Part shown: one piece after another, positions 2,700 through 18,074 of the stretch
Position numbering within the stretch: position 1 is the first letter of the stretch
Layout of the letters: every line of letters starts with the position of its first letter
Virus record (IMG/VR): IMGVR_UViG_3300030108_002379
Location: 1 to 28,938 of that record
DNA from: a virus
Length of the DNA: 28,938 bases
Reading direction: 5' to 3' (one strand)
Notes under the pieces: generated by a model
Told to the model about the DNA's origin: nothing
Seen by the model: the letters and a program-made list of their open reading frames with translations, nothing else
The model's database searches: none
Made by a program: the position numbers and the translations under genes

Positions 2700-4586
2700 A
2701 TGACTTTACAAAAACTACAATTTAGACCCGGTATAAATAGAGATGTGACCAACTACTCTAATGAGGGTGGGTGGTTTGAGTGCGATAAAGTACGATTTTT
2801 AAATGGCTACCCTGAGAAAATAAGAGGGTGGGAAAGGTACAGCCCTTTCGATATACAAGGCGTCTGTAGAGGTATGTTTGGTTGGATCACTTCTTTTAAT
2901 GACAATATATTAGCTATGGGGACAAATAAAAAAGTGTACTTAGAAGTGGGTACAAACTTTAATGACGTAACCCCGCTACGAGATTCCCCTTCAGCAACCA
3001 TGACTATTAATACGTTTGCAGCATCTGCTGGTTCCACAGAAATAGTTGTTAATGCTACAGCTCACGGTACTAATGCAGGAGACTTTGTTACTTTTGCAGG
3101 AGCTTCATCTTTAGGCGGAAATATAACCGCTGATGTGTTAAATCAAAACTATGAAATTGACAGCATTATAGATGCTAACAACTATCAAATTAGCGCCACT
3201 GCTACTGCAAGTGCATCAGATAATGGAAATGGGGGTAACGCAACAACCGGAAGTTACGAAGTGCCAGTAGGTAACGGGACTCTTGTTTTTGGGTATGGTT
3301 GGGATACTGACACTTGGGGTAGGCTTGGGTGGGGATCAGGTTCTTTACAACCAGTCGTATTGCCTTTGACTGTATGGTTTTTTGACAATTTTGATAATGA
3401 CTTAATAATGAATGTCAACACCGACGATAAAGGAGCCGTGTTTTATTGGGAAAGAGGTTCTGCTACTGACCCAACAGCATCACTAGGTACAAGAGCAGTT
3501 AAACTATCTAGTAGATCGAATGCTAAGAATGTCCCTGCAGAAGTAGGTCAAATAATGGTAGCTTCAAATAACAGGCATTTATTAGCTTTTGGTGCAACCC
3601 CTTTTTCTGGTTTGTCACAAGCAGAAGATACAGGCACATTTGACCCATTACTTATAAGGTTTGCAAATCAAGATGAACCTGAAAACTTTAGGCCTGAAAC
3701 AACAAATAGTGCGGGGTTTTTAAAAGTTAGTAGCGGCACAAGAATTGTTGCTGCTGCCAGGACACGAGAAGAAATATTAGTGTTTACGGATATGTCGGTG
3801 CATACATTACAATTCTTAGGCACTTCTGACGTATTTGGTTTACAAGAGTTAGAAACAAACATATCCATAGCTAGTGCTAGAAGTGTGATATCAGCCACTA
3901 ATGTTTTGTTTTGGATGGGTAGTGACAAATTCTATATTTATAATGGTCGTATAGATACGTTGCCTTGTACGTTAAGAGATCATGTATTTGATAACATTAA
4001 CTTTGATGCACTGCGGTATGTTTATGCAGGTACAATAGAAGCGTATAACGAGGTGTGGTGGTTCTACCCATCTGCTAACAGCAACATAAATGATTCTTAT
4101 GTAGTATATAATTACAAAGATAATTTGTGGTTTTACGGTAGTTTGAACAGGTCTGCGTGGTTAGATGCAAATTTAAGACAATTTCCGCAAAGTATTGAAT
4201 CAGAAAAGATATATGACCATGAAAGAGGGGTAGATGCAGACGGTTCAGCCATGGCTTCTTTTATTACAAGTTCAGATTTTGATATAGGCGACGGAGAAAA
4301 ATTTACCCTAGTTAAGCGTATTTTACCTGATTTGGACTTTACGGGTTCCAATGCTGTAGAACCTAGTGTTAAAATGACGGTAACACCAAGGGATTTCTCA
4401 GGAAGTCTGCATAGAACCGAAGAAGATAAAAACGTTATTGAAACCTCTGTAGGTGTCTACAGTAATCAAATATTTTTAAGAGCAAGGGCAAGACAGATAG
4501 GCTTCAAGATAACGTCTGATACTTTAGGCACTACTTGGAAGTTAGGTTCTCCAAGATTAGATGGTAGGCCAGACGGGAGGCGCTAA
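2700..4586 (+). CDS. Conserved phage structural protein, probable tail/neck hub component
   Basis: A 628-aa beta-rich protein of a type very common in marine short-tailed phages. It opens with LQFRPGINRDVTNY, then GGWFECDKVRFLNGYPEKI and GWERY. An Ala/Ser/Thr-rich insert at about residues 100-185 (FVTFAGASSLGGNITADVLN) looks like a small Ig-like or beta-sandwich domain. After it come Trp/Gly-rich repeats (GYGWDTDTWGRLGWG) and alternating strands resembling a beta-propeller (VWFFDNFDNDLIMNV, VLFWMGSDKFYIYNG, WWFYPSAN, LWFYGSLN). The C-terminus ends LGSPRLDGRPDGRR. I have a weak recollection that relatives resemble P22 gp10-type hub proteins; that is inference. It follows the endolysin by one base and overlaps the next gene by one base (TAATG). 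No strong Shine-Dalgarno site is seen. Confidence 0.7.
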   Translation: MTLQKLQFRPGINRDVTNYSNEGGWFECDKVRFLNGYPEKIRGWERYSPFDIQGVCRGMFGWITSFNDNILAMGTNKKVYLEVGTNFNDVTPLRDSPSATMTINTFAASAGSTEIVVNATAHGTNAGDFVTFAGASSLGGNITADVLNQNYEIDSIIDANNYQISATATASASDNGNGGNATTGSYEVPVGNGTLVFGYGWDTDTWGRLGWGSGSLQPVVLPLTVWFFDNFDNDLIMNVNTDDKGAVFYWERGSATDPTASLGTRAVKLSSRSNAKNVPAEVGQIMVASNNRHLLAFGATPFSGLSQAEDTGTFDPLLIRFANQDEPENFRPETTNSAGFLKVSSGTRIVAAARTREEILVFTDMSVHTLQFLGTSDVFGLQELETNISIASARSVISATNVLFWMGSDKFYIYNGRIDTLPCTLRDHVFDNINFDALRYVYAGTIEAYNEVWWFYPSANSNINDSYVVYNYKDNLWFYGSLNRSAWLDANLRQFPQSIESEKIYDHERGVDADGSAMASFITSSDFDIGDGEKFTLVKRILPDLDFTGSNAVEPSVKMTVTPRDFSGSLHRTEEDKNVIETSVGVYSNQIFLRARARQIGFKITSDTLGTTWKLGSPRLDGRPDGRR

Positions 4587-4885
4587 TGGCGATGCGGTCT
4601 TTTAGATCTCCTCCGTTGCCCTTACCTCGTGGAGACTACGATAGAAGATATTTTGAACAGCTAATTAAAGTAATTCAAATATATTTTTCACAGCTAGATT
4701 CAGAAAACCCTCTGCATTTAGAGGGTATGGTTTTAACAGATTTGCCGGAGGATACAGCAGATCTGCCAAACTTTAGTTTATTTAGAGAAGGAAGAAACGT
4801 TAAAATATTACTACCAGGAGATATGTATCCAACAGGCACAACCAGTAGTTCTGAGGTCGGTTCAGTAACCGTGACAATAACATGA
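4586..4885 (+). CDS. Conserved small phage protein next to the structural hub gene
   Basis: A 99-aa protein beginning in the TAATG overlap with the preceding structural gene, which indicates coupled translation. The N-terminus is basic and proline-rich (RSFRSPPLPLPRGDYDRRYF). It is followed by an amphipathic helix (FEQLIKVIQIYFSQLD) and a short beta-rich C-terminus (GRNVKILLPGDMYPTG, then a Ser/Val/Thr tail). In related marine phages a protein of this size and style commonly follows the gene at 2700-4586, so a virion role is plausible, but I do not know its function. The stop overlaps a possible 31-aa gene (ATGA). Confidence 0.65.
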   Translation: MAMRSFRSPPLPLPRGDYDRRYFEQLIKVIQIYFSQLDSENPLHLEGMVLTDLPEDTADLPNFSLFREGRNVKILLPGDMYPTGTTSSSEVGSVTVTIT

Positions 4886-4977
4886 ACATAGTTTTAACCT
4901 GCGATAACAACCTCCTCGGTGGCATCACCACCCTACCTCTCCGCCTTGGGGGTTGGCAGGCTTTGGAGAAAATATAA
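4882..4977 (+). CDS. Probable 31-aa microgene bridging two structural genes
   Basis: The apparent gap between 4885 and 4977 is filled exactly by a 31-codon frame. Its ATG shares bases with the preceding stop (ATGA at 4882-4885) and its TAA shares its last base with the next ATG (TAATG at 4975-4979). The peptide starts MNIVLTCDNNLLGGITTLPL and ends LGGWQALEKI, with no low-complexity sequence. The stretch is visibly richer in G+C than its neighbours. There is no Shine-Dalgarno site of its own, so expression would depend on translational coupling. Such perfect stitching at both ends is hard to explain by chance, but the frame is very short. It may alternatively be a leader whose translation exposes the next ribosome binding site. 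Confidence 0.45.
   Translation: MNIVLTCDNNLLGGITTLPLRLGGWQALEKI
4965..4968 (+). promoter_or_regulatory. Shine-Dalgarno GGAG deciding the start at 4977
   Basis: GGAG (in TTTGGAGAAAATATAATG) ends 8 nt before the ATG at 4977. An in-frame TTG at 4953 would add eight residues but has no comparable site, so the ATG is preferred. The site lies inside the 31-codon frame that ends at the same ATG. Confidence 0.7.
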
Positions 4978-6563
4978 TGATTCAAGATTCAGTAGGAAAA
5001 AAAGTAACACCTGACCTTATTAAACAACTTTATCAAGAGGAATTAGGCAGACTTCCTGAAGAGGGAGCCGTTTCGTTCTATCAAAATTTATATGGTGATA
5101 CATTTGACCAAATAGAGTTAGACCAATTTAGAGGTTCTACAGAAGCTGAGGCTTTTGAATCTGACGTAGAAAAACAAGCAAAAATAAAAGAGGCTCAACC
5201 AGGCTTAGAGAATCTTTATCAAGACATATTATTTAGAGAGGCAGACCCAACAGGCATAGCAGGATTTGCAGGTAAACCATTAGAGGAAGTAAGGCAAGAA
5301 ATAATGACTTCACCAGAAGCCATGGGTCCAGCAAGAATTAGACAAGCGTTTGAAGAGGTAGTGAAAAGACCTGCCAGACCTGAAGATATGGCTTTTTACC
5401 AAGAAAGGTTCGGTCCTGTAGTTAGCGATCAAGAAAGAGCTGAGTTAGTGCGTGCTATGCGTCCAGAACAGATGCAGATGTTTCAAAGAGAGTTAGGCAT
5501 ACCGACATTAGATTTTTCAAAGTTTGGTACAACACCTGAGAGAGCAGGTATTAGTAGGCTGATGCCAGCAGAAACTGAAGAAGGTATGAGAGCTGGCGGT
5601 GTGGTAGATAATAATGGTGTAATGCGTTTTGGCCTAGGTGGTCTCTTTAAAAAAATTAAAAGTATAGTAAAACCAATATTTAAGATAGCAAAAGCTGCGC
5701 TTCCCACTATTATAGCCGTGAACAACCCTGTCCTTGGTGCCACGTTAGCAGCAGCAGACGCCGGATTTAAAGACGGAAAATTTGACCCAAAAGATGCAGG
5801 AATAGCAGCAATTAAAACTATAGCGCAAGCTAAAGCAGCAAAAGCTATTTCAGGTACGCCTGAAGCTGCGGGAGGTGTTGATGTGGGAGTAAAAACAATT
5901 GACCCTTCTACATTCCCGTATGGTGCTAAGGGAGCTACAATGTCTACAGCGGCTATACCAACTGCTCCGACTGTTGGGCAACAATTAGCTCAACCGTTTA
6001 CTGATCCTAAGGGTTTTGGTAGAGAGGTTGTAGATACGTCTAAGGCACTCGGTGAAGGGTTTATGGACGCAGGAGGCAAAGCACTCGGTGGCGACTTTTC
6101 TGGGTTTAAGGGTACAGCTACACCTCTTACTGTTGCTGGTCTAGCGCAAACTGCTGAGATGGGTATGGAAGAAGCAGCAAACATACGTAACAAACAAAAA
6201 GCTATAATTGCTGCACAAGAAGAAAAGAAAAAGAAGTACCGTGATTTAGCTAGTGATTTACGAAGAATGTTTCCATACGGATATAAAGAAGGTGGTATAT
6301 CGTCACTTCCTGCTAGATATTTAGATGGTGCAGGTGACGGTATGAGTGATTCAATAAAAGCTAATATAGGTGATATGCAAGAAGCAAGATTAGCTGACGG
6401 AGAATTTGTAGTTCCTGCCGATGTAGTGGCAGACCTTGGTAACGGTTCCTCAAATGCAGGGGCTGAAAGATTATACTCCATGATGGATAGAATTAGACAG
6501 GCACGTCATGGAACAACTAAACAACCGCCTGAAGTAAATGTAAATAAAGCACTACCAGCGTAG
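4977..6563 (+). CDS. Virion-type structural protein with DUF4214-like repeats
   Basis: A 528-aa protein of unknown function, read from the ATG with a good Shine-Dalgarno site. The N-terminal third holds three related helical units at about residues 14-47, 77-115 and 121-146. They have the look of DUF4214-type repeats (LYQEELGRLPEEG; LYQDILFREADPTGIAGF; FEEVVKRPARPEDMAFY). A glycine-rich turn (GVMRFGLGGLFKKIKSIVKP) then leads into an Ala/Lys-rich, partly hydrophobic middle. The C-terminus carries a signature frequent in uncultured marine phages: GDGMSDSIKANI, EARLADGEFVVPADVVADLG, then AERLYSMMDRIRQARHG. Neighbouring genes of similar composition suggest internal virion or ejection proteins. 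The structural assignment is inferred from style and position. Confidence 0.65.
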   Translation: MIQDSVGKKVTPDLIKQLYQEELGRLPEEGAVSFYQNLYGDTFDQIELDQFRGSTEAEAFESDVEKQAKIKEAQPGLENLYQDILFREADPTGIAGFAGKPLEEVRQEIMTSPEAMGPARIRQAFEEVVKRPARPEDMAFYQERFGPVVSDQERAELVRAMRPEQMQMFQRELGIPTLDFSKFGTTPERAGISRLMPAETEEGMRAGGVVDNNGVMRFGLGGLFKKIKSIVKPIFKIAKAALPTIIAVNNPVLGATLAAADAGFKDGKFDPKDAGIAAIKTIAQAKAAKAISGTPEAAGGVDVGVKTIDPSTFPYGAKGATMSTAAIPTAPTVGQQLAQPFTDPKGFGREVVDTSKALGEGFMDAGGKALGGDFSGFKGTATPLTVAGLAQTAEMGMEEAANIRNKQKAIIAAQEEKKKKYRDLASDLRRMFPYGYKEGGISSLPARYLDGAGDGMSDSIKANIGDMQEARLADGEFVVPADVVADLGNGSSNAGAERLYSMMDRIRQARHGTTKQPPEVNVNKALPA

Positions 6564-9412: not shown

Positions 9413-12400
9413 ATGCCATATGAAGTAGAACTCCCAGACGGTACAATTATACAAGGCATACCAGATGATATGCCGCGATCTGAAGTACGTAAGCGTATAC
9501 TAAAAGCTTATCCTCAATTTGCTACAGAGGAAGACAAAGTACCATCACCTGCACCTGCTCCGGTTGTAACAGAAACCGAAACCGAACCTCCACCAGCTCC
9601 AGTAACACCGACAGCAGAGGCAGAAGTAGAAGAGCAAGTTTCAGAAAGCGAATTAGGAGTGCAGGGTGTGTCTGATTTAGATGCACTTATACCTGCTGGG
9701 GCAGAAGAAAAAGCAAAAAGCGTACTCGATACATTTACAGGTTTATTGGAAGAACCTCTTGCTGCATCAGCATTACCTCCTGCACTTAGGTTTTTAGCTC
9801 CTACAACTGAAGAAGACATATCATCTAGGGCTTTTCTTGAACGAGGTGTTCTATCTCGCATAAGAGCAGCTTCAGATTTTTTTGGTGCTGGTAATGAATT
9901 TTCCGATGCGATAGAAAAAAGAAAAGAAGAGGTAAGCGAGCTTATATCAGATGCGTCACAAGGAAGACTGGATAGAGCCGCTAAAAAAATGGAGGATGCG
10001 AAAGGCAAAGGCACATTAGCAGAAATTAAAGCGGCTCTTGAGGCGTTTGCAATCGCACCCGCAGAAATAACAGGAGAAGCTTTAGCTACAACTATACCCG
10101 ACTTAATAGCTATTGCTGCAGCAGCAACTCTAGGGCCAACCGCCGCGGTCGGTACGGCTGTTACTTTGGGGGCTACATCTGGTCTCGGTATTGTTAAAGG
10201 CGCCATATATGATGAAGTAGAAGCGGCACTAATTAAACAAGGATCTTCTCCAGAAGAAGCCGAGAAAAGAGCTAAGGTAGCTCAAGAATATTTTGGTAAG
10301 AACTATAAAGAAATTCTTGCTGGTGGTGGACTAGGTATTCTAGCTACCCTAACTGGTTTAGAAAAAGGAGTCATGGCGCCCATAATACAAAATGCCGTGT
10401 CTAAATCAATAGCAAGAAAAATAGCAGAAGGTGCAGTAAAAGAGGGAGTGCCTGAGTTTTTACAAGGGGCAGAAGAGCAGCTCGCACGCAACTTAGCTTT
10501 GAGCCGAGAAGGTATTGAAACCGACCCACTTAAGGGTGTCGTCGGTGCCGGAACATTAGAAGGATTGGCTGGTTCAACTTTAGGTGCCGCTGGCGAGGTA
10601 GCCCTTTCACGAGAAGCGACAGAGGAGCAAGCAACATACGACGCAAGGAAAAGAGACTTCAATAAAGAGGTGAATGAAGTAACAGATGTAGAGTTTAATG
10701 AAATTTTAGGAGGATCTCCAGATGATGTCGATACTACCATCGCTGAACTTGAATTTGACGACCCTGACAGAGAAGGACTTGAACCTAGCGTTCCGCTGCT
10801 TGGCGGACCAGAACCAGAACCAAAGTTACTTGAAGGACCTACCCCCGAACCTGAAGAAACTGACGGAGCACGATTGGGAGATGTTGAGCCTACTCCTGTC
10901 AAGCCTAGAGCTACAAAGGGACGAGTCGACGATACAGTAAAAGAACCTGAGCCTGACTATGTGTCACGTTCGGAAGTATTTGGTTCTTTTAACTTTACAA
11001 ATGAAGTTTCAGATGTATTTGCCGATGAAAAAGTTAAAGTTGCAAAAAGGAATTTGCTTGAACCGCCCATTACAGATTTTAAAGTAAAGAGAGCGCAAGA
11101 AAGAGAGCGCAGATTAGTAGAATTAATGGAAGATTTTGAGCTAAAACAGTACCCTTCCGGCACGGTTGGAGCATCTCCAATGTTTCGATTTGCTAGAGAA
11201 ATAGATGCGAATGAATCTCTCGTAAAAAACAAGATAAGTGAAGAATTTATAGAAACCGATTTTTATGAGGAAAAATACGATAATAAACTACAAAGAGATT
11301 TGTTCAAAAAAATAGTTAACGACACTATAAAAAAACACACTGATTATTTGGCTGATAAGTACGGAAACGCAATAGGAAATGTAAATGCTTTTAGAACCAA
11401 TAACTTAAAAGAAGCATTTAGTTCTTTAGAACCGTTAGCTAATTTAGGCCCTATAGATACGGAAGTATTTAAAAAATTTGTCACTCCTACACCTCTTATT
11501 GCCTCAGCTACAAGAGAGTATGCTAATAGAAGGAGGAGGAAAGAGAATCAAATTGAGCCAGTAAATAGAGCGCTTATAGATATATTAGAAAAAATGAGCG
11601 ATCTAAAAAATATAAGAGAAGATATTAAAATATTTGCTACAAAAGAAGCAAAACGACTACGTAGTTTAAGACCTGCAGCGTATGATAGAGATACCGGAAG
11701 AGCTAGAGAAAGACCGGGAAATAGGTATGATGCTGCAAAAACTGCGCGTAAACATTTGCAAGGTTTAATAGACGACTACGAAAAAATAGGAACAGTTGAA
11801 ATACCTCAATTAGCCGATAGGCTACAAAAAACTTTAGATGGAGAAATACCAAGCCCAACAAAAGAGTTTGTTTCCGAGGTAGTGAAAGAAAAAGCAGGTG
11901 ATATAAAAGAAGGCGACACTGTTACTTTTTACAGAACTTTAGATAAATCAAACCCAGAAGAAGGCACAGTTTTAGCTGTGTTACCCAGAGCGTTTTTAGT
12001 CAACCCTAAAGGAGAACCTCGTTCGGTTAGATTACCAATACCTAAAAGACTAACGCAACTAAAAAAATCAAGTTCTGATGAACCCATGTATAGCGAGCTA
12101 ACAGGGAGTGGTAGCCGCGTAGGTACTCTAACAGCCGAAGCAGATTTAGAAAAACTATATGAGTTGCTAGGCCCTGATATATATGGTTGGGACATAATAC
12201 CAACAGTTGCTAAAGAAACTATGCAGAACTCAGCGGATGCCATAGAAGCCGCTCAAAAATTGGGTATTGTTAAAGAAGGTAAATTTTCTTTTGAAATAGA
12301 TAGACAGTCTAGAACTGTAACTATAAAAGACAACGGTATAGGTATGTCTCCTGAAATAATACAAAAAGCTTTTTTATCTATGGGTGGTAGTGAAAAACAA

Positions 12401-15400
12401 GGTTTAGGGGCTGATGAATCAAAGGGAGGAAAAGGTCTCGCTAAGATGGGTATATTAGGGGCCGCGGAGTCTTTTGATTTGACTACTGTTCATACAGCCG
12501 AAAAAACTGGTGAAAAGGATAAAGACGGTAGAGCAATATACAGACGCAAAAAGACCCCTTCAAAAACTATTATAAAAGGAGAGAACCCAAAAAAAGCTAT
12601 GACGGGCACCCCTGTTACTTTTGAAGAAATAACTAAAGGCATAAAATTTTCTGAAACAGGATCTACTTTAGTTTTAAAGTTTCCTCAAAGATATAGAGAT
12701 TTTAGTATATATTTTGATGGTTACATGCCCGTATTAAGCAGACCTTTGTTTGGAAACATAGAAGTATTAGCAAATGAAGAGGCGTTACCGACCGGAAAAA
12801 ATTTCCCTTTTGATAAATACCAAGAACCTTTAAACGTTACATTTGATTGGGGAGAGGCAGATATATATTTTAGTAACGCCAAAAAGAAAAAACCCACGCA
12901 TACTGTATTAATTTCAGGTATATATCAGTTTGATGTAACGCAGTCTACAGAAGGGGACGCTTTAACTTTTGATGATAAACCAATACCTTACGACATAATA
13001 ATTAACTTAAAAGCGAAGTACGCTCCTGGTGATACTGAAGGACCTTACCCCATAAACAATAGCAGGGAAAATTATAATCCTAATCTAAAAAAAGACATAA
13101 AAGCTTTAAACGCTTATATAAAACAAATTTATTACGGGGAATATGCTTTAGAACAAAGAGACAACTTTAAAGACATAATATCTTTGCCTATACAAGAAAT
13201 AGAAGATGAGTTCGACTTAAACGACTCTTCGCGAAAAAGATTAGAAGACAAATATGAAGACGCTGCTAAGGCTTTTGCAAAAAATAAAGAGGCAGAAAAA
13301 AAGGCAAAAGCAGAAGTAGAAAAAGTTAAAAAGTCTAGACCTAAACAAGTTGTTATATCAAATAATCAAGTTATAGATAAAAACACTCAAAAGATTGTTG
13401 TTAGCGAAAAACAAGTAGAAGCAAGTTTTAAGGCCCAGAAAGCTGCTCCGACCCCTGCAGATTTTGACGTAATATTCGAGGGTAAAACTGAAGATAAACC
13501 TATATTTCATAACAACACCAACATGGTGTTTGACCCACAAAAAAATGCTGAAGACAAAGAGGCGATATTATTTTTTAGTAAGTTAGGTTCTATATTTATA
13601 GATATAAAAAATACTGTTTATGAACTTTACAGCGAAGGAAAGCTTAGAGGGAACTATGGGCCTTTGGCTCCTGGATCTTTGCATTATGTAGGTATTTCTA
13701 TAGATAAAAAATACGCTGGAGTAAATATAGTTAAACCATATAAAGCAGTGTTCTTAAATCCGTTAGGGTCTCATACACCAGATGAAAGTGACATGTTTGT
13801 TATTATGAATGATTACTTTACAACCATGGTTCATGAGTTAGCTCACGTAGCGGTTAGAAGTCATGATGATAATTTTGTAGCGGCTATGGCTAATATAACT
13901 AGAGAGCTTGTAAGAGCTGGTAAAGAAGACTATTATAAAACTGCCATATATGCAGCTATTGCAGATCATGGTGAGGCATTACTTAAATTAAGGAGAAAAT
14001 TTGATGAATTCCAAACAGTTAATCGGTTCTCTTCTCTTGAGGACACTGACGAAGCCGTCGCCGCTAGGAGGCCTGAAGATCGCGAAGTCGGAGGTGAAGA
14101 TGCGATACGCCCTAGCCGCTCAAGAAGGGAGCCTAGAGGGGTTGGCGATGATGACCCCGTTTCGTTCGGCCCTGAAAGCCGAGACCCCGGAACAGTTCCA
14201 GGAGATCGTGGAGGACGTCGCGGGCGCGCCAGCAGACCAGTTGAAGTTGTAGACACCCCCAGTGGGTTAGAAGCTTTAGGTTCGGCATTAGGAGATAGAC
14301 CTGCATTTAAGGATGTAAAGTTCTTCCTGCAGAATGTTTTGTTTGGTAAAGAGCCGTATCCTGCTGAGGGATTCAGAAAGGGGTTGTTCAAACTATTGTC
14401 GGCTAGACAGATGGATGAGGTGATGCCTAAAGTTCTGATAGGTGATTCAGGCGTACCTCAAAAATTAAAGTTTATGCAAGTAGCCTTGAGGTTAGCTGGA
14501 GATGATATACCTAATTTTAGAACTGACATAATTAGGGAAGGCACCAAAGTAAATGACATACTTGCAAAAATAGCGACAGGGCCAAATGGTGTAAAGATAA
14601 TAGAAAGACTAGGTGCTGTAGCTATTGAAGCTACTTCTAAAAGCCAAGATCCGACTGTCGAAGAAGACAGAGACGCTAACCCGCAACTAGCCGAAGCTTA
14701 TGACAATTTACCTAACGATGCTAAAAGAGCTTTCGTAGGTATGAAAAGGTTTTACAAAAACCAGATAAACGGGTTAAAACAAGATTTAATTAGAATGGCT
14801 ACTAGGTTCATAGACCGTAGCACACCGGAAGGTGAAGCATCTTTTGCCGAATCCGTAAGAGATATTGAAGAGCAGTTTAGAGAGATAGATAGATTCCAAC
14901 CATATTTCCCCTTGAAGCGTTTTGGAGATTTTTGGTTACAAATAGGAGACAACGCAGATCCCGACAAAAAGTTTTTTGTGTTTGAATCAGAGCTTAGAAG
15001 AGATAGGATAAAGGAAGAATATAAGCAATATTTAAGAGAACAGTATTCCAGCACAGGGGCCTCGTTTGGAGATAGGTATCAGCCCGTTATTTCAGGCAAT
15101 CAGTTCTTACAAGATGTTCTGATGCAGCAGGTAGTACCACACTCTTCAGAGTTTATTACAAGACTTGAAAGAATAGTAGACAGAGTAGCCGCAAACCCTA
15201 TGGTGGGTGATGTAGACTCGTTTAAAAATAAAGTAAAAGAAGGTATAAGACAGATAGCTTATTTGTTAGCAGCTTCTGGTAGTTTCAAAAAAATGTTTTT
15301 AAATAGAAAGGCTATACAAGGAGCAAGCACAGATATACAGAGGGTGTTCAGTTCTTCTGTTATAAACATAGCATATCAGAGGGCAAGAATACGCTACTAT

Positions 15401-17362
15401 GCTGAGTGGAATGATAACTTAGTTAAAGCTAATGAAATAATAACTAATCGAATAGAACAAGATACTCCGCAGCAAAAAGTTTTACGTAGCATGTTAATTG
15501 AATTGCAAGAAAGAACCGATCAAGTTTTAAGTTTAACGCCTACAACTGGATGGCATAAACTATCTAACGCAATTACAAACACGGTATTCTATTGGTTCCT
15601 TACCGCTCCAGGCTCGGCTTTGGTTAACATATTTGGTATGACAAATGTATCGCTTCCAGCTATAGGTGCTAGGTACGGTATGATACCAGCCACCAAAAAG
15701 TTTATGTCCTACGCTATGCGGTTTGGTTACAGACCTGACTTCATGTTTACAACCGACCCCGATGTAAGAGGTATACCATTAACGCCTAGTGTTAGCGGAG
15801 TTGGTGTAAAGTTTGTATCACCACATAAAAAATATGCAGAAAGTCTACCGCCTTTACAACAACAAGTTTTAAAAGACTTAGAAAACCACATTGATGCTTC
15901 TTTTGCATATGATGCTGCAAACTTATCTGAACGGCCTGTTGATCTATATGCAAGTCCTTTTGAAAAGACAACTAGATTTTTAGCTGCTTTATTCCACAAC
16001 TCTGAAAAGTTTAACCGGACTGTTGTCGGTCTAGCCACATTTGATTTAGCTTACGAAAAGTATGCGGGCGGAAGAGAAAGAGTAAGAGAGTTAGCAGAAA
16101 CAGGTGGCACAAACTTAAACGCTTATAATTTAGCAGTAGAAGAAGCTAAATACATGATGTATAAAACACTGGGTGACTTTACACCTTCAGGAAAAGCTCC
16201 TGTTCTAACGCACCCGTTAGGCAAAGTAATGTTGCAGTTCAAAGGTGTTTCTTTATTTTTAACATTCAATAATCTTAGAGATGCTAAAGTTGGTTTGCTT
16301 AAAATGAGTGGCGATCCGTCTGTAAAAGAGCTAAGACAAAAACTACTTGATAGGGGCGATTTAAGTGAAGAGGAAGTAGAAGATAACGTAACCGAATATA
16401 AGATGAATCAAGATAGGTCCTTCCAAGAAATGCGTAAGCGTTTATTTTTAACAAGCGCTTTTAGTGTGTTAATGGCAGGGGCAAAAGGTTTTGCTTTTTA
16501 CGGTTTGTTCAAGGCTCTGTATGAGTTAATTAAATACTTGTACGAAGATGATGAGGATGAAGCACCAATACCTTTATTTGCAGAAGATTTTGATACTGTA
16601 GTTTATGAAGGATTAAAAGACGCACTTGGTAGTATGGGTGTCGGTGAGGAATTACGTACCAGTTTAGCTTCTTCTTTCATGCGAGGTGCGATAGAAGAAT
16701 ATACAGGCTTAGGTATACAGGAAAGAATAAGTTTAAATATACCTGACTTATGGGTTAGGGATTCTGTTTACACTAGGAGTGCAGAGGAAACTTTACGGGA
16801 GCAGGTGTTAAGTAATTTAGGTCCTTCTTTCTCTTTGGCTTCTAACTTTGCTAAAGCCGTGGATTCATTTAATCAAGGTAAGTATTTAAGAGCGTTTGAA
16901 GATGCCGCCCCCGCTATATTAAAGGGGCCTCTAATGGCAGGTAGGTATGCACAAGAAGATGGAGTGAAAACAAGAACTCTAAATACCATGTTACGTAAAG
17001 ACGAGTTATCTACGGGTGACTATATTCTAAGATCAATAGGAGTTGCCCCAGCAAAGGTAGCAAGAGAAACCGAAAAAAGACGTAAGATGTTTAAAGCTTT
17101 GGCGCCTGTTAGAAACGAAAAATCAAATATATTGGCTTCATATACAACAGCCACGATATTAGACGATGGGGATATGTATCAAAAAGCAGAGCGGAAAAGA
17201 ATGTTGTTTAATGAAAAGTATCCTGATTTTGGTATAGAAGATTCAGAAGTTACAGACTCAGTAAATAAAGCTTTACAATACAGAGAACAAGCTGCAGATT
17301 TAGGTGGAATTAAACCTGAAGAAGAAGCCTTCACTTCTACAATAAAAGGTGTAGGAGAATGA
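9413..17362 (+). CDS. Giant polyvalent virion protein with GHKL ATPase and HExxH metallopeptidase domains
   Basis: One uninterrupted 2,649-residue frame. Residues 1-36 form a small N-terminal module (YEVELPDGTIIQGIPDDMPR) seen on many phage internal proteins. A Pro/Thr/Glu linker follows, then an Ala/Gly-rich hydrophobic region (about 200-400) and an acidic Pro-rich linker (about 440-520). A Bergerat-fold ATPase occupies about 900-1150: N-box E935...N939..D942, DNGIGM at 973-978, GGKGLAKMG at 1005-1013 and TGTPVTF at 1064-1070. A metallopeptidase motif HELAH at 1474-1478 with third ligand His1484 and DDNF after it marks a zinc protease. An Arg/Gly/Asp-rich linker (about 1530-1613) separates these from a long helical C-terminal half (YFPLKRFGDFW, AITNTVFYWFLTAPGSALVN) typical of large polyvalent proteins. 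Such proteins are thought to be packaged and injected to act on the host early. Start: AAGGT 8 nt before ATG. Confidence 0.8.
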   Translation: MPYEVELPDGTIIQGIPDDMPRSEVRKRILKAYPQFATEEDKVPSPAPAPVVTETETEPPPAPVTPTAEAEVEEQVSESELGVQGVSDLDALIPAGAEEKAKSVLDTFTGLLEEPLAASALPPALRFLAPTTEEDISSRAFLERGVLSRIRAASDFFGAGNEFSDAIEKRKEEVSELISDASQGRLDRAAKKMEDAKGKGTLAEIKAALEAFAIAPAEITGEALATTIPDLIAIAAAATLGPTAAVGTAVTLGATSGLGIVKGAIYDEVEAALIKQGSSPEEAEKRAKVAQEYFGKNYKEILAGGGLGILATLTGLEKGVMAPIIQNAVSKSIARKIAEGAVKEGVPEFLQGAEEQLARNLALSREGIETDPLKGVVGAGTLEGLAGSTLGAAGEVALSREATEEQATYDARKRDFNKEVNEVTDVEFNEILGGSPDDVDTTIAELEFDDPDREGLEPSVPLLGGPEPEPKLLEGPTPEPEETDGARLGDVEPTPVKPRATKGRVDDTVKEPEPDYVSRSEVFGSFNFTNEVSDVFADEKVKVAKRNLLEPPITDFKVKRAQERERRLVELMEDFELKQYPSGTVGASPMFRFAREIDANESLVKNKISEEFIETDFYEEKYDNKLQRDLFKKIVNDTIKKHTDYLADKYGNAIGNVNAFRTNNLKEAFSSLEPLANLGPIDTEVFKKFVTPTPLIASATREYANRRRRKENQIEPVNRALIDILEKMSDLKNIREDIKIFATKEAKRLRSLRPAAYDRDTGRARERPGNRYDAAKTARKHLQGLIDDYEKIGTVEIPQLADRLQKTLDGEIPSPTKEFVSEVVKEKAGDIKEGDTVTFYRTLDKSNPEEGTVLAVLPRAFLVNPKGEPRSVRLPIPKRLTQLKKSSSDEPMYSELTGSGSRVGTLTAEADLEKLYELLGPDIYGWDIIPTVAKETMQNSADAIEAAQKLGIVKEGKFSFEIDRQSRTVTIKDNGIGMSPEIIQKAFLSMGGSEKQGLGADESKGGKGLAKMGILGAAESFDLTTVHTAEKTGEKDKDGRAIYRRKKTPSKTIIKGENPKKAMTGTPVTFEEITKGIKFSETGSTLVLKFPQRYRDFSIYFDGYMPVLSRPLFGNIEVLANEEALPTGKNFPFDKYQEPLNVTFDWGEADIYFSNAKKKKPTHTVLISGIYQFDVTQSTEGDALTFDDKPIPYDIIINLKAKYAPGDTEGPYPINNSRENYNPNLKKDIKALNAYIKQIYYGEYALEQRDNFKDIISLPIQEIEDEFDLNDSSRKRLEDKYEDAAKAFAKNKEAEKKAKAEVEKVKKSRPKQVVISNNQVIDKNTQKIVVSEKQVEASFKAQKAAPTPADFDVIFEGKTEDKPIFHNNTNMVFDPQKNAEDKEAILFFSKLGSIFIDIKNTVYELYSEGKLRGNYGPLAPGSLHYVGISIDKKYAGVNIVKPYKAVFLNPLGSHTPDESDMFVIMNDYFTTMVHELAHVAVRSHDDNFVAAMANITRELVRAGKEDYYKTAIYAAIADHGEALLKLRRKFDEFQTVNRFSSLEDTDEAVAARRPEDREVGGEDAIRPSRSRREPRGVGDDDPVSFGPESRDPGTVPGDRGGRRGRASRPVEVVDTPSGLEALGSALGDRPAFKDVKFFLQNVLFGKEPYPAEGFRKGLFKLLSARQMDEVMPKVLIGDSGVPQKLKFMQVALRLAGDDIPNFRTDIIREGTKVNDILAKIATGPNGVKIIERLGAVAIEATSKSQDPTVEEDRDANPQLAEAYDNLPNDAKRAFVGMKRFYKNQINGLKQDLIRMATRFIDRSTPEGEASFAESVRDIEEQFREIDRFQPYFPLKRFGDFWLQIGDNADPDKKFFVFESELRRDRIKEEYKQYLREQYSSTGASFGDRYQPVISGNQFLQDVLMQQVVPHSSEFITRLERIVDRVAANPMVGDVDSFKNKVKEGIRQIAYLLAASGSFKKMFLNRKAIQGASTDIQRVFSSSVINIAYQRARIRYYAEWNDNLVKANEIITNRIEQDTPQQKVLRSMLIELQERTDQVLSLTPTTGWHKLSNAITNTVFYWFLTAPGSALVNIFGMTNVSLPAIGARYGMIPATKKFMSYAMRFGYRPDFMFTTDPDVRGIPLTPSVSGVGVKFVSPHKKYAESLPPLQQQVLKDLENHIDASFAYDAANLSERPVDLYASPFEKTTRFLAALFHNSEKFNRTVVGLATFDLAYEKYAGGRERVRELAETGGTNLNAYNLAVEEAKYMMYKTLGDFTPSGKAPVLTHPLGKVMLQFKGVSLFLTFNNLRDAKVGLLKMSGDPSVKELRQKLLDRGDLSEEEVEDNVTEYKMNQDRSFQEMRKRLFLTSAFSVLMAGAKGFAFYGLFKALYELIKYLYEDDEDEAPIPLFAEDFDTVVYEGLKDALGSMGVGEELRTSLASSFMRGAIEEYTGLGIQERISLNIPDLWVRDSVYTRSAEETLREQVLSNLGPSFSLASNFAKAVDSFNQGKYLRAFEDAAPAILKGPLMAGRYAQEDGVKTRTLNTMLRKDELSTGDYILRSIGVAPAKVARETEKRRKMFKALAPVRNEKSNILASYTTATILDDGDMYQKAERKRMLFNEKYPDFGIEDSEVTDSVNKALQYREQAADLGGIKPEEEAFTSTIKGVGE
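13991..13995 (+). promoter_or_regulatory. Internal Shine-Dalgarno AGGAG inside the polyvalent gene
   Basis: AGGAG lies 8 nt before ATG 14004, which is in the +1 frame relative to the surrounding 2,649-codon gene. Sequence and spacing are close to ideal, and better than those of most annotated genes in this window. It supports translation of the overlapping frame at 14004-14252. Confidence 0.6.
14004..14252 (+). CDS. Probable overlapping gene nested in the polyvalent ORF (82 aa)
   Basis: An 82-codon frame lying wholly inside the giant gene, in the +1 frame, with AGGAG at ideal spacing. It coincides with a sharp GC island: by hand count 14041-14220 is about 62% G+C, against about 37-38% in 60-base blocks on either side, and the island stops at this frame's TAG. 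By hand count its codon positions are about 59, 41 and 74% G+C (positions 1, 2, 3), the profile of a normal gene from a GC-rich genome. The peptide looks globular and helical (LIGSLLLRTLTKPSPLGGLK; MRYALAAQEGSLEGLAMMTP), with no Cys or Trp. The host frame here reads as disordered Arg/Gly/Asp/Pro sequence. I do not recognise the family. The GC pattern could partly reflect the amino acids of the host-frame linker. Confidence 0.5.
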   Translation: MNSKQLIGSLLLRTLTKPSPLGGLKIAKSEVKMRYALAAQEGSLEGLAMMTPFRSALKAETPEQFQEIVEDVAGAPADQLKL

Positions 17363-17733
17363 CAAAGTACCCCATAGTATCCGGTATGAAAGAAAAAACT
17401 AGGCCGCCTTTAGTTTTAGTTACTTGGCGTGATGCAGAACATGAATTTGGGTGGAAAGACGGCAATACACATATAGAGCCCATAGATCTTCCGCTAGTTT
17501 ATAGCATTGGTTGGTTTATATATTCTAACGAACACGGTGTCAAAATATGTCAAACCTGGACAGTCGATAATCATGCACAGACGCTTGTGATCCCAAAGAA
17601 TATGATTGAGAAGGTAGAAGAGATATGGCCCGAAAAAGAAATAGCAAAGGGCAGTACCAAAAATACGGCAAAGCCCACTATGAAAAGAACAAGAAAGCCT
17701 ACGTCGAGAAAGCCAAAAAGCACAAAGCGGTAG
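17359..17733 (+). CDS. Small hypothetical phage protein
   Basis: A 124-aa protein starting in an ATGA overlap with the polyvalent gene; AAGGTG lies about 8 nt upstream, and an ATG ten codons in is an alternative. Residues 15-90 form a compact alpha/beta region (PPLVLVTWRDAEHEFGWKDG; LVYSIGWFIYSNEHGVKICQ; NHAQTLVIPKNMIEKVEEIW). This resembles a small uncharacterised protein type found in many phages, with a VGW-like strand followed by an IP+xxI helix. The last 35 residues are very basic (Lys/Arg/Thr) and are encoded by the same DNA as the N-terminus of the HNH gene in another frame (109 nt overlap), so this tail may be a by-product of the overlap. Function unknown. Confidence 0.65.
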   Translation: MTKYPIVSGMKEKTRPPLVLVTWRDAEHEFGWKDGNTHIEPIDLPLVYSIGWFIYSNEHGVKICQTWTVDNHAQTLVIPKNMIEKVEEIWPEKEIAKGSTKNTAKPTMKRTRKPTSRKPKSTKR

Positions 17734-18074
17734 AAAAACAAAAGTGGGCAGCGTTCAAAGCTACCTTGTCATGCACTCAGTGTGGAGAGGGCCACCCTGC
17801 AGCCTTAGATTTTCACCATATAAAGAGAAGTAGGAACAACATAAAAGTGCACGTCTTAGTAAAAGACGGTCGGTTTAAGAAAGCCTATGAAGAGATAAAA
17901 AAATGTCTGGTGCTGTGCGCTAACTGCCACAGAAAATTACATTATAAAGAGTACAAAAAAAACCCCCGCACTGGGCGGGGGAAAACTAAGGAAACATGTC
18001 AAGATAATTATATCACTCAATCCTCCAAAAGCGCAAGCCCCTCAGCTTGTCTTCTATTACGGACTTACAAATAA
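17625..18074 (+). CDS. HNH endonuclease
   Basis: A 149-aa HNH-family nuclease. The zinc-binding and catalytic pattern is complete: Cys50-x2-Cys53, DFHH at 62-65, Cys98-x2-Cys101 in CANCH with Asn100, and His106. The N-terminal 45 residues are a basic, coiled-coil-like extension (KAHYEKNKKAYVEKAKKHKA), probably for DNA contact. Small HNH proteins in phages can be free-standing homing or nicking nucleases or help packaging; no terminase is in this window to decide. The start lies 109 nt inside the preceding gene, behind a GAAGAGAT purine run. Its last 31 codons run through a terminator hairpin belonging to the opposite strand, and its last 62 nt are antisense to the end of a minus-strand gene, so the C-terminal tail after about residue 115 is probably not conserved. 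Confidence 0.8.
   Translation: MARKRNSKGQYQKYGKAHYEKNKKAYVEKAKKHKAVEKQKWAAFKATLSCTQCGEGHPAALDFHHIKRSRNNIKVHVLVKDGRFKKAYEEIKKCLVLCANCHRKLHYKEYKKNPRTGRGKTKETCQDNYITQSSKSASPSACLLLRTYK
17955..17981 (-). terminator. Intrinsic terminator of the minus-strand replication operon
   Basis: A perfect 7-bp GC stem (CCCCCGC at 17963-17969 with GCGGGGG at 17975-17981) and 5-nt loop. Read on the minus strand it is followed by eight T residues (A-run 17955-17962 on the plus strand). It lies 31 nt beyond the stop of the last minus-strand gene. On the plus strand no U-run follows, so it should act on leftward transcripts only. Confidence 0.85.

Follow-up and report, generated by a model that had tools for sequence, protein, structure and literature searches.

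The window comprises 28,938 nt of a 30.8-kb IMG/VR virus record and contains a giant polyvalent gene within which two small ORFs are nested in the +1 frame. The features discussed below, all on the + strand, are as follows.

9413..17362, +, giant polyvalent (PLxRFG/DarB-like) gene, the host frame; 2,649 codons; NCBIfam NF032893
10708..10713, +, AGGAGG, Shine-Dalgarno (SD) sequence of nested gene 2, with the ATG 8 nt further 3'
10722..10940, +, nested gene 2, coding for a putative 72-aa protein (or 71 aa from 10725), in the +1 frame of an N-terminal Pro/Glu-rich linker
12212..12538, +, GHKL/HSP90-like ATPase domain of the giant protein, aa 934-1042
13781..13936, +, WLM/zincin metallopeptidase domain with the motif HELAH, aa 1457-1508, just 5' of nested gene 1
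13989..13991, +, TAA stop in the +1 frame, 4 codons 5' of the start of nested gene 1
13990..13995, +, AAGGAG, SD sequence of nested gene 1, with the ATG 8 nt further 3'
14003..14252, +, aa 1531-1613 of the giant protein, a disordered Arg/Gly/Asp/Pro linker read in the host frame from the DNA of nested gene 1
14004..14252, +, nested gene 1, coding for an 82-aa predicted helical-bundle protein, in the +1 frame relative to the giant gene; stop codon TAG
14900..16294, +, PLxRFG C-terminal virion region

The giant protein contains several enzymatic domains, a metallopeptidase among them, as polyvalent proteins do. Its C-terminal PLxRFG region scores 218 bits against NF032893 (curated cut-off 100), and it also matches the DarB-like family phrog_10089 in PHROGs, whereas its N-terminal part (aa 202-433) matches a virion-RNA-polymerase PHROG. 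Pfam comparisons identified HATPase_c_3 (25.5 bits, cut-off 25) and WLM (29.1 bits, cut-off 26). The ATPase segment resembles phage rIIA-like proteins, and that of one relative (L117) matches a Streptomyces phage rIIA (2e-4), suggesting that this virion polyprotein combines an rIIA-like ATPase with a WLM peptidase. The genes located 5' of the giant gene are structural, holin, endolysin-like and DNA-ejection genes; directly 3' lies an HNH endonuclease gene (17625-18074), which overlaps the preceding 124-aa ORF.

A sequence-only reading of this DNA had proposed an 82-codon +1 ORF inside the 2,649-codon gene, preceded at 8 nt by AGGAG, and our analysis confirmed both the ORF and its putative SD sequence. 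Likewise, the codon-position G+C contents that it had estimated, about 59/41/74% in the +1 frame and 74/59/41% in the host frame, agree with our measurements of 57.8/41.0/74.7% and 74.4/58.5/41.5%, respectively. The G+C jump that it had described at the ORF also exists, but the limits assigned to it (onset within about 30 nt of the start, end at the stop) hold only roughly: G+C is 35% at 14004-14040, 61.8% at 14041-14252 and 48% at 14253-14315, so that the island begins around 37 nt inside nested gene 1 and fades just past its stop. The host-frame residues lead to an expected G+C of 51%, as compared with 39% for the giant gene and 58% observed; half or more of the G+C excess in this stretch is thus explained by host-frame Arg/Gly/Asp/Pro residues.

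We evaluated how often such an ORF would appear by chance. When we kept the host residues and drew synonymous codons according to the usage of the gene, the +1 frame was open across 81 codons in 0.75% of draws, and a run of at least 86 open codons occurred anywhere in the giant gene in 2% of them. Additionally, the host-frame GC3 of the island is 41%, versus 26% expected (P about 0.002), and CGC represents 5 of the 15 Arg codons in the linker versus 6 of 142 elsewhere in the giant gene. When only the synonymous codons of the island itself were shuffled, the +1 frame remained open in 24% of cases, indicating that the openness of the ORF is, on its own, weak evidence. Taken by itself, the window sequence is moderately more than expected by chance, and it is the relatives that decide.

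To examine conservation, we used the alignment of the PLxRFG region to search IMG/VR, retrieving 80 loci picked independently of the small ORF. Five of these hold the peptidase region, and all five contain a 71-codon +1 ORF at the same place, with around 32% identity over 43-50 residues to the 82-aa product of the window; the nested gene 1 family is absent from the other 75. A separate IMG/VR search using only the giant gene's own frame produced 18 loci: 16 match the nested gene 1 family by profile, and the remaining two (L115 and L117) contain a diverged ORF of 72 codons in the corresponding position. Searching with the small protein added contigs, and a broader search raised the total to 36 IMG/VR contigs, all of them metagenomic, with loci from different searches partly repeating the same contigs. 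All 36 contigs with the peptidase region carry a 70-84-codon +1 ORF at the matching position, and the small ORF was nested in the +1 frame of the giant ORF in every contig inspected. Single-sequence scans of IMG/VR yielded nothing, and only alignment-based scans succeeded. The sequence-only reading had called for an alignment of homologous polyvalent genes, and had considered that homologues keeping the linker but carrying +1 stops would speak against a second gene. We observed the opposite, because every relative with this region keeps both the segment and the small ORF. In one relative (L024; 3121 and 3105-6164), the giant ORF breaks shortly past the nested gene and resumes in another frame; its close relatives are intact, and the break is probably a sequencing or assembly error.

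The start signals of nested gene 1 are also conserved. All 32 distinct sequences, including that of the window, start with ATG, and the relatives show a purine SD-like core 5-8 nt before it, although the host residues encoded there differ (MREAYG, MKESYD, LRTQYG, LRRKFDE). An in-frame stop closes the +1 frame 3-4 codons before the ATG in 30 of the 32 sequences, and 12 codons before it in the other two. For the Tyr preceding the start, TAT is used in every case, even though TAC is the more frequent codon in these genes. The host linkers of the 36 contigs hardly align, whereas the position, frame, start, SD sequence and protein sequence of the small ORF are kept. The product from the window is only about 16-29% identical to other nested gene 1 products and has a modest score of 19.2 bits (E 0.0018) against a profile built without it, ranking first among the non-members in a set of 25,603 six-frame ORFs. 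This score was not reached by any of 2000 synonymous shuffles, and by one of 2000 when shuffling within the island.

Comparison of pairs that are 85-100% identical in the nested stretch, which are not independent of one another, produced a pN/pS of 0.25 for the +1 frame and 1.52 for the host frame. Conversely, the adjacent peptidase region showed values of 0.12 for the host frame and 2.36 for the +1 frame. In the nested stretch the differences mostly affect position 1 of the host codons, and in the flank position 3. Close loci found with the host frame only gave 0.24 (+1) versus 2.10 (host), with the exception of the pair L115/L117 (14 differences), with around 0.5 in both frames. Measuring constraint in the two frames, as the sequence-only reading had advised, therefore revealed purifying selection on the +1 frame and a relaxed host frame. 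Across the nested stretch, relatives lack stops in these two frames alone. The third and the antisense frames, which contain many stops in relatives, were rejected as the coding frame, as was the antisense ORF 13966-14391, whose frame is full of stops in relatives.

No relative has a stop in the host frame across the nested stretch, whereas constraint on the +1 frame alone would, on average, keep it open in around 13% of draws. The giant protein would thus be read through the overlap, and conserved giant-protein domains are found on both sides of it. The proposal that one stretch of DNA encodes two proteins is strongly supported by the conserved +1 ORF, start and SD sequence, by purifying selection on the +1 frame and by the open host frame.

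The next-longest +1 ORF of the giant gene, at 10722-10940, was picked as a negative control for chance linker ORFs, but it failed as such because it proved to be conserved like nested gene 1. It matches 12 other giant-gene loci (E 0.08 or better), in all cases in the +1 frame of ORFs of 2,000 codons or more, and a profile built without the window scores the window's copy at 39.6 bits (E 5.8e-10). This nested gene 2 family includes about 40 distinct sequences, whose starts, set by a rule, are more uncertain than those of nested gene 1; it shares the pattern L[ST]xExVxxAFxxL...LPxEL...W..LxxLLxxLExEKxxS[TVL][IL][NHQ]-stop and has no match in Pfam or PHROGs. In four groups of relatives, pN/pS was 0.00-0.17 for the +1 frame and at least 2.5 for the host frame. 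A position-blind sliding scan of 14 giant-gene pairs flagged both nested genes, plus one marginal scan window. Nested gene 2 is present with or without the peptidase domain. About 30 PLxRFG giant ORFs that are complete in their loci (L010-L014, L017, L027 and others) contain neither nested gene.

The homology search proposed for the 82-aa product uncovered a conserved IMG/VR family, yet no known protein family: there were no significant matches in Pfam, PHROGs, NCBIfam or PDB sequences, and the family showed a single weak match to Pfam TPR_26 (E 0.033). Using tblastn, nothing was found in plasmids or in 50,697 phage records, and hence no cultured phage with nested gene 1 was found among those records. 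The sole match in GTDB (L002, 61% over 23 aa) was antisense to a transposase-like ORF and was taken as chance. AlphaFold2 predicted a bundle of four to five helices, with pLDDT 91.5 and pTM 0.81 for the product of the window (18-sequence alignment) and pLDDT 93.2 and pTM 0.78 for that of a relative, a confidence that partly reflects the distant relatives held in the alignment. Foldseek comparisons with the PDB and viral models gave no confident relative and none below E 0.19, the value of the best viral match, an uncharacterised 73-aa protein of Citrobacter phage Margaery. No ORF in the first 12 kb of the Margaery genome, including the rII region, matches the nested gene 1 family.

Together, these comparisons lead us to consider ORF 14004-14252 a genuine overlapping gene with a probability of about 0.93. 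It could be argued that a disordered Arg/Gly/Asp/Pro linker, being poor in +1 stops, left 82 functionless codons open by chance, as happens in the 24% of island shuffles mentioned above. However, chance would not keep the position, frame, start, SD sequence and protein in 36 contigs with barely alignable linkers, nor produce selection on the +1 frame and a product predicted to be foldable; the switch of pN/pS between frames refutes chance for the family, and we consider this explanation very improbable. The +1 frame lies directly after the peptidase domain, which would agree with programmed ribosomal frameshifting generating a peptidase fused to the helical protein, with no separate protein. 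Nevertheless, the +1 stop found so close to the start in 30 of 32 sequences (3-4 codons) leaves almost no room to shift, and what is kept instead is the ATG and the SD sequence, through different host codons. These signals and the nearby upstream stop point to independent initiation, and we deem frameshifting very unlikely.

The sequence-only reading had also suggested a GC-rich donor, and foreign insertion into this phage would fit a 62% G+C stretch, with a codon-position pattern of 58/41/75, within a 39% G+C gene. This origin could not be upheld and is scarcely credible, because the gene has the same location in all relatives, whose loci have 41-58% G+C and often show little contrast, and because host residues explain half or more of the G+C excess; the small gene is ancestral at this site in all related giants, where the contrast is mostly mild. 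An older free-standing gene, located between two genes that were later fused through it, is in turn compatible with an overlapping gene, and both the stronger constraint on the +1 frame and the compact predicted fold are as expected of an older gene; this fold lends the fusion idea some weight. However, at the sensitivity of our searches, neither IMG/VR nor the 50,697 phage records, nor plasmids or GTDB genomes, yielded any free-standing homologue, which favours overprinting without proving it, and the existence of two unrelated nested genes in two linkers would require two fusions, making overprinting simpler. We regard fusion as rather unlikely.

For an overlapping gene, ribosomes would start independently at the SD sequence and ATG of nested gene 1 within the mRNA of the giant gene, and the product of this internal initiation would be a 9-kDa helical protein. 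Other ribosomes would read the same bases one position back, producing a flexible linker that connects the metallopeptidase to the C-terminal virion region. The substitution patterns in relatives show that the DNA is shaped mainly by the small protein, this linker tolerating almost any hydrophilic sequence. Nested gene 1 occurs wherever the WLM peptidase domain is present, with no exception, and is absent from PLxRFG giants without WLM; this set was partly gathered with the small gene, whereas the 5/5 and 18/18 host-selected cases and the 75 absences are independent of it. Strict co-occurrence and position are the two observations from which we tentatively propose that the small protein might be a partner of the metallopeptidase segment (chaperone, inhibitor or cofactor), both being produced in matched amounts. 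For polyvalent proteins, processing by their own zincin peptidases has been proposed (PMC5512222). A linker that is free of constraint and adjacent to the peptidase would lend itself to cleavage as well as to overprinting.

Out-of-frame nested genes are known in phages, such as Rz1 within Rz and phiX174 E within D. As in these cases, a small protein would be independently translated from an internal start in another frame of a larger gene. Unlike in them, the proteins are others, two unrelated nested genes are located in disordered linkers of a single giant virion gene, and the host frame is under relaxed selection across the overlap. The lambda Nu3 scaffold is in frame with the C protease and shares its sequence; it is likewise a small partner protein encoded inside a phage protease gene, whereas nested gene 1 is in the +1 frame and the two proteins are unrelated. 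The overlapping exclusion genes of the tailed phage Fc02 (PMC9936078) are a further reported example of overlapping genes, although, going by the available part of their description and not by sequence, they are in a different gene context, with no giant polyprotein. The giant gene is of the type of the phage polyvalent proteins (Iyer et al. 2017, PMC5512222), for which many domains, a zincin-like metallopeptidase and delivery during invasion are described. It differs in the nested genes, since in the portion of that paper available to us the word 'overlapping' is absent and no description of nested genes was found.

Our results thus define two new protein families, without matches in Pfam or PHROGs and known only inside another gene, that are conserved across dozens of related uncultured phages. 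They also illustrate that conserved overlapping genes can be spotted by reading codon-position G+C by hand, and the clean substitution signal indicates that a disordered linker can be a free partner in dual coding. We see about even odds that giant virion polyproteins double as nested operons, their disordered linkers, with no constraint on sequence, repeatedly hosting independently translated +1 genes that serve the neighbouring domain and are missed by standard gene callers; of the two described here, one would be tied to the metallopeptidase and the other lies in the N-terminal linker. Were this widespread, conserved small proteins could be concealed in many giant phage genes. The strict pairing of nested gene 1 with a virion metallopeptidase allows a specific partner function to be tested.
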